Positions 28,778 to 59,197 of a DNA stretch of 64,000 nt are shown piece after piece. The notes beneath the pieces are model-generated. The model made no database searches. It had not been told where the DNA came from and saw only the letters and a program-made list of their open reading frames with translations. The translations under genes were made by a program, and so were the position numbers. Each line of letters starts with the position of its first letter. The stretch's first letter is position 1. This DNA is from Glandiceps talaboti. Taxonomy: Eukaryota > Hemichordata > Enteropneusta > Spengelidae. The stretch lies in contig NC_135559.1 in assembly GCF_964340395.1 (NCBI RefSeq), positions 6,865,259 through 6,929,258 of the forward strand. The letters are read 5' to 3'.

Positions 28778-28856
28778 ATGGCCGGTGTCTTTTCAGTACT
28801 GGGTGTATTTTTATCACTCCTTACAATCACTTCAGCACAGTTGCCTGATTTTGGAA
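28778..28856 (+). CDS. Multidomain gene exon 1: signal peptide
   Basis: ATG in the context CCAAGATGG. It encodes [20 protein letters not shown] followed by QLPDFG: a hydrophobic core and a small-residue cleavage site after SA. Donor GGAA|GTAAGT, phase 1. Confidence 0.9.

Positions 28857-59197: not shown

Follow-up and report, generated by a model that had tools for sequence, protein, structure and literature searches.

Gene model at the locus

The window, which is the whole 64,000-nucleotide stretch of Glandiceps talaboti DNA that was analyzed, is AT-rich (35% G+C), and its genes are animal-like. Upstream on the plus strand lies a SUCLA2-type gene, represented by eight open reading frame (ORF) pieces between 8334 and 16814 that were picked by motif. 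Five of the eight were scanned with Pfam and three of these gave matches (Ligase_CoA twice and ATP-grasp_2 once), while the best match of three joined pieces was ADP-forming succinate-CoA ligase beta (1.2e-65). A 33-bp tandem repeat is found at 18495 to 18915 (12.8 copies, 92% match), and an ORF at 20472 to 20741, which by eye we take to resemble the GIY-YIG end of a retroelement, gave a chance-level Pfam match alone. ARAGORN and Rfam, the latter at the gathering threshold, returned nothing across the window.

Between 28778 and 59197, the plus strand can be spliced into a single open frame. Its 28 exons, joined across GT-AG introns, give 1409 residues from 4230 bp of coding sequence including the stop. 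The ATG lies at 28778, the stop codon ends at 59197, and a single frame runs across all exons of the model. The original prediction had placed 29 exons and 1417 residues in one frame; the single frame was retained, and the counts were replaced by those of our own model. The two ends of the gene proposed at that time were recovered by a basic gene finder that used splice and codon scores and imposed no phase constraint; it supplied an initial chain of 25 exons. Codon scores for the gene finder were trained on 13 exons of the same gene, and the initial exon scan was restricted to phase-1 exons. The final model was reached by inspection of gaps, with the WAP exon extended, three short juxtamembrane exons added, and five other ends altered. 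Nineteen of the 28 final exons are identical at both ends to those of the gene finder, six differ at one end, and three, the juxtamembrane ones, were missed by it. A candidate whole exon at 40483 to 40545 was dropped, being the end of the first WAP module, as was a donor at 39867, which is the second copy of a local repeat.

Phase-1 introns are the pattern expected for shuffled extracellular modules, and 21 of the 27 introns in the model are phase 1 (5 are phase 0 and 1 is phase 2). G+C content is 48%, 47%, and 31% at the first, second, and third codon positions, respectively. The probability of the open frame arising by chance is about 1e-40 at an intronic stop frequency of 0.063, a value that overstates the case because exon ends were picked to preserve the frame. 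Four splice sites of the model scored below zero, namely, the exon 2 donor (−0.6) and the acceptors of exons 10 (−0.8), 12 (−0.9), and 26 (−1.7), by consensus frequencies that were not trained on this species; the exon 24 donor fell outside the scored set.

In introns 6, 7, and 9, the 3′ end of the EGF exon just upstream is repeated in tandem along with its 5′ splice site, at 36954 to 37174, 38026 to 38546, and 39848 to 39875. At up to 7 mismatches of 28, the three introns hold 2, 9, and 1 further copies, respectively. Such exon-end copies were found at 3 of 27 donors versus 1 of 27 acceptors (intron 15), a pattern that is no more than suggestive of repeat seeding at donors, and several introns are repeat-rich anyway.

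Modules of the predicted protein

Pfam calls were judged at the curated cutoffs, and HMMER filters drop most matches with E values above about 0.1. Six families reached these cutoffs: EGF, WAP, thyroglobulin-1, antistasin, Kunitz, and Ig. Eight families had been predicted originally, and the remaining two, SEA and lustrin, were without a Pfam match. PDB sequence searches agreed for thyroglobulin, Notch-type EGF, and TFPI-type Kunitz modules, and NCBIfam, run on two pieces of the protein, gave one chance-level match.

Exon 1 (28778 to 28856) carries the start codon and a predicted signal peptide, identified by hydropathy and the gene finder. Exons 2 to 9 each encode one EGF-like module and are entered in phase 1 throughout, namely, exon 2 (29593 to 29715), exon 3 (31072 to 31203), exon 4 (32651 to 32764; EGF3, which carries an RGD motif), exon 5 (33924 to 34061; EGF4), exon 6 (36869 to 36985), exon 7 (37956 to 38054), exon 8 (38831 to 38944), and exon 9 (39649 to 39771). 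Seven stretches were called as EGF at the curated cutoff (1.5e-43). EGF4 reached EGF_2 alone, at 21.4 bits against a cutoff of 22.1, such that of the eight EGF modules predicted, seven were recovered by Pfam and the eighth rests on its cysteine pattern. Pairs of EGF modules are 26 to 60% identical.

The EGF-like exons are followed by modules of inhibitor-type families, several of which occur twice. Both predicted WAP modules reached the Pfam cutoff, the first in exon 10 (40402 to 40545; 6.4e-07, 30 versus 20.8 bits) and the second in exon 20 (51945 to 52100; 1.4e-11). The same was true of both thyroglobulin-1 modules, in exon 11 (42791 to 43036; 1.1e-17, with matches to PDB thyroglobulin chains) and exon 22 (53910 to 54089; 1.1e-14), and of both Ig modules, in exon 14 (Ig_3, 2.9e-09) and exon 19 (51316 to 51612; I-set 1.8e-06, 28.3 versus 23.7 bits). 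Two antistasin-like modules had also been claimed: the copy in exon 12 (44882 to 44985) was called as Antistasin (5e-07, 30.6 versus 21.2 bits), and the copy in exon 17 (48907 to 49017) was subthreshold at 14.4 versus 21.2 bits. Likewise, one of the two claimed Kunitz modules was upheld by Pfam. Exon 18 (50182 to 50343; 2e-17) encodes the only Kunitz module with the canonical six cysteines and YGGC, and its PDB matches include TFPI, SPINT1, and APP chains. The P1 residue of canonical Kunitz inhibitors is basic or large and hydrophobic, a rule that exon 18 fails, as its P1 residue is Asn (GPC-N).

The other Kunitz-like module is degenerate and precedes the first Ig module in exon 14 (46264 to 46962), where it was subthreshold by Pfam (E value of 0.028, 15.0 to 15.3 versus 21 bits). 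Repeat analysis indicated an in-frame Gly/Asp/Arg-rich minisatellite of 135 bp within the exon (46349 to 46483), the periods of which (12, 27, and 39) are all multiples of three and which, by eye, interrupts the Kunitz-like module after its second cysteine. The protein contains six RGD motifs, and five of the six lie within the minisatellite. An AlphaFold prediction of exon 14 made without an alignment had a mean pLDDT of 34.3 and was discarded. The paired modules are 42% (WAP), 32% (thyroglobulin-1), 34% (antistasin), 25% (Kunitz), and 30% (Ig) identical, and because they share just 25 to 42% identity, the comparison suggests an early origin for the internal repeats.

Four further cysteine-rich exons fell outside these families. 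Modules X (exon 13; 45246 to 45333), A (exon 15; 47740 to 47889), and B (exon 21; 53033 to 53191) matched no Pfam family up to an E value of 10, and module A matched nothing among PDB sequences up to the same value. Modules A and B are 39 to 40% identical to one another, and 11 of 30 aligned residues are identical between modules X and A. We note that X, A, and B are related and would constitute a small family to describe. Exon 16 (48020 to 48172) is also cysteine rich and is presumably the module that was originally called lustrin type, a designation that Pfam did not confirm, as no match was listed for this exon up to an E value of 10.

The membrane-proximal end and the integrity of the gene

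The region between the last thyroglobulin-1 module and the membrane, residues 1229 to 1348, is spread over exon 23 (55964 to 56033), exon 24 (56575 to 56638), exon 25 (57017 to 57112), and exon 26 (57893 to 58096), the last of which also encodes a Lys/Gly-rich linker and the predicted transmembrane helix. A SEA domain had been proposed here. Pfam SEA was sought in the region up to an E value of 10 and was not found, and a PDB search with the region gave chance-level matches (best E value of 0.053). The MUC1 SEA domain, used as a query identical to PDB Mucin-1 chains whose ends and starts fall at G|S, had its best local match in the whole protein at residues 1270 to 1305, with GSIIV (residues 1278 to 1282) aligned under GSVVV. 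GSIIV is also the sole match in the protein to the pattern G[SA][VIL][VIL][VIL]. The alignment scored 42 over about 36 residues against a shuffle mean of 26.5 (standard deviation of 4.5), and 4 of 1,000 shuffles reached 42. When searched against PDB, MUC1 SEA itself reached three chains that are not mucins, one of them a transmembrane protease, only at E values of 0.015 to 0.03, and for this reason we regard the SEA family as divergent. The short alignment over GSIIV weakly suggests that the juxtamembrane region is SEA-like, and we do not call it SEA. Several subthreshold Pfam matches at the C terminus were set aside, including Amnionless (16.8 versus 30.4 bits, E value of 0.003), DUF5856 (18.8 to 20.3 versus 34.6 bits), RIFIN, Presenilin, FAZ1_cons, and Peptidase_S49_N.

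The cytoplasmic tail is encoded by exon 27 (58693 to 58749) and exon 28 (59147 to 59197), the latter including the stop codon. It contains FSNPVY (within FSNPVYD), which fits FxNPxY and bears out the NPxY-type tail of the original prediction. PTB domains of Dab2, ARH, and Numb recognize FxNPxY in the tails of LDL receptor-type proteins, according to excerpted text of PMC3848845. The last intron contains the near-palindromic sequence AAGGCCCAATGGGCCTCTTG at 59048 to 59067, possibly from a dispersed repeat.

Mean hydropathy exceeded 1.6 in only two stretches of the protein, residues 1 to 22 and residues 1347 to 1378, and the stretch near the C terminus agrees with the one transmembrane helix that had been predicted. 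By hydropathy only, the protein thus has the N-terminal signal peptide and the one transmembrane segment near the C terminus of a type I single-pass protein. A gene model artifact, in which at least two neighboring genes, such as one coding for EGF modules and one for an inhibitor, were joined, is unlikely. In its favor are the four splice sites with scores below zero and the precedent of lancelet, in which module mosaics can be fusions on paper and published "novel architectures" may include such errors, as described in part of PMC4967905. Against it, the frame is unbroken across 28 exons, the sole signal peptide lies at the start, and the sole transmembrane segment and tail lie at the end. 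Consistent with a single start, the stretch from 28.5 to 59 kb yielded just one first exon, the one at 28778, that has both a signal peptide-like segment and a phase-1 donor score of >2. A search for an internal exon encoding a transmembrane segment plus stop returned a single candidate, which lies within exon 11 but in a different frame; because the search considered only phase-1 acceptors scoring >2 and could not have picked up the true transmembrane exon, it is weak evidence.

Pfam was also run on the three plus-strand frames from 28.0 to 58.0 kb with X at stops, and EGF, thyroglobulin-1, WAP, Kunitz, and Ig were the only families found. Six EGF stretches were detected, as expected from the frames of exons 2, 3, 4, 6, 8, and 9. 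The scan gives positions for the best stretch per family alone and is insensitive; weak hidden modules may still be present because it missed several known ones (EGF4, EGF6, the first WAP module, both antistasin copies, and the first Kunitz module). Taken together, we consider the region from 28778 to 59197 very probably a single gene. At the sequence level, there is good support for its prediction as one gene encoding a single-pass membrane protein that carries a mosaic of inhibitor-type modules.

Predicted function and known systems

Judged from its sequence, the protein is most likely a type I receptor, the modules of which would bind proteases or matrix and the FxNPxY motif of which would direct LDL receptor-type endocytosis. 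We tentatively favor the narrower reading that this surface protein of ~1409 residues is a receptor of the capture-and-clear type, with proteases as its cargo. Its inhibitor-type modules would project from the membrane along with the EGF rod and would engage either proteases outside the cell or matrix partners. Through the motif in its tail, the protein would recruit clathrin adaptors that have PTB domains, for example, Dab2 or ARH, and cargo would be internalized. In addition, GSIIV within the SEA-like region could self-cleave and allow the ectodomain to be shed. A broader version, in which inhibitor folds for serine and cysteine proteases act in series as a pan-protease scavenger with clathrin endocytosis by FxNPxY and SEA-type release, is improbable.

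Protease inhibition by the modules is something we infer, and the label "inhibitor array" is weaker than it sounds, because the exon 18 Kunitz module has Asn at P1, the exon 14 Kunitz-like module is both subthreshold and interrupted by the minisatellite, and folds of the WAP, thyroglobulin-1, and antistasin types frequently are noninhibitory. A structural or adhesive role is nearly as likely as protease capture. The protein could possibly be an adhesion or matrix receptor, with the modules serving as noninhibitory spacers and as surfaces for binding (the EGF rod, Ig modules, and RGD loops) and the NPxY tail joining the cytoskeleton or signaling through PTB proteins. Integrins and signaling receptors also use NPxY-type tails. 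The eight EGF-type and two Ig modules, the RGD motifs, and the state of the two Kunitz modules are each consistent with adhesion, but RGD within a simple repeat may be incidental, and four inhibitor-type families, each present twice when subthreshold copies are counted, are hard to explain as spacers. An immune-type recognition receptor, whose inhibitor modules would counter microbial or parasite proteases by serving as decoys or weapons, is quite doubtful. WAP and Kunitz modules occur in invertebrate defense proteins, and here they accompany two Ig modules, but when the cysteine-rich ORFs of the two strands of the window were inspected by eye, a second such cluster was not seen. If the capture-and-clear receptor is real, it would offer a direct test of whether receptor-borne inhibitor modules clear proteases, a task that soluble inhibitors perform together with LRP1.

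Parts of the architecture resemble known proteins. HAI-1/SPINT1, HAI-2, and APP are type I membrane proteins that bear a Kunitz module, and the exon 18 Kunitz module matched PDB chains of HAI-1/SPINT1 and APP; to our knowledge, none of the three has WAP, thyroglobulin-1, or antistasin modules or an EGF rod. The short cytoplasmic tail with FxNPxY is shared with the LDL receptor, but LDLRa and beta-propeller modules were absent from the Pfam matches here. In the short SEA alignment, GSIIV falls under the G|SVVV site of MUC1 and lies outside the membrane, but the Pfam SEA match was absent and mucin-like repeats were not seen in the translation. WAP and antistasin modules are combined in shell-matrix proteins of the limpet Lottia gigantea, which differ in their location and for which a membrane anchor and Ig, thyroglobulin-1, and EGF modules go unmentioned in the excerpted text of PMC3374290. 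The whole module set on one protein was not described in the titles and abstract openings of the open-access papers examined, and an annotation of this architecture may well exist elsewhere.

A further comparison is with papilin and the WFIKKN (GASP) proteins. WFIKKN carries Kazal/follistatin and NTR modules, papilin carries thrombospondin-1 and PLAC modules, and we know of no EGF rod, transmembrane segment, or FxNPxY tail in either. None of these four module types was found by Pfam in the scanned pieces of our protein or in the less sensitive frame scan from 28.0 to 58.0 kb. WAP, Kunitz, and Ig modules, all present here, occur together in papilin and WFIKKN proteins, and a 292-residue protein of Nematostella has IGc2, Kunitz, and two WAP modules, as given in excerpts of PMC3427181; thyroglobulin, antistasin, and lustrin have zero occurrences in the text of that paper. 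Papilin is termed secreted in the same excerpts, whereas the protein described here is predicted to be membrane anchored and, if real, would show that an animal has joined inhibitor folds of four families to a membrane receptor of endocytic type.
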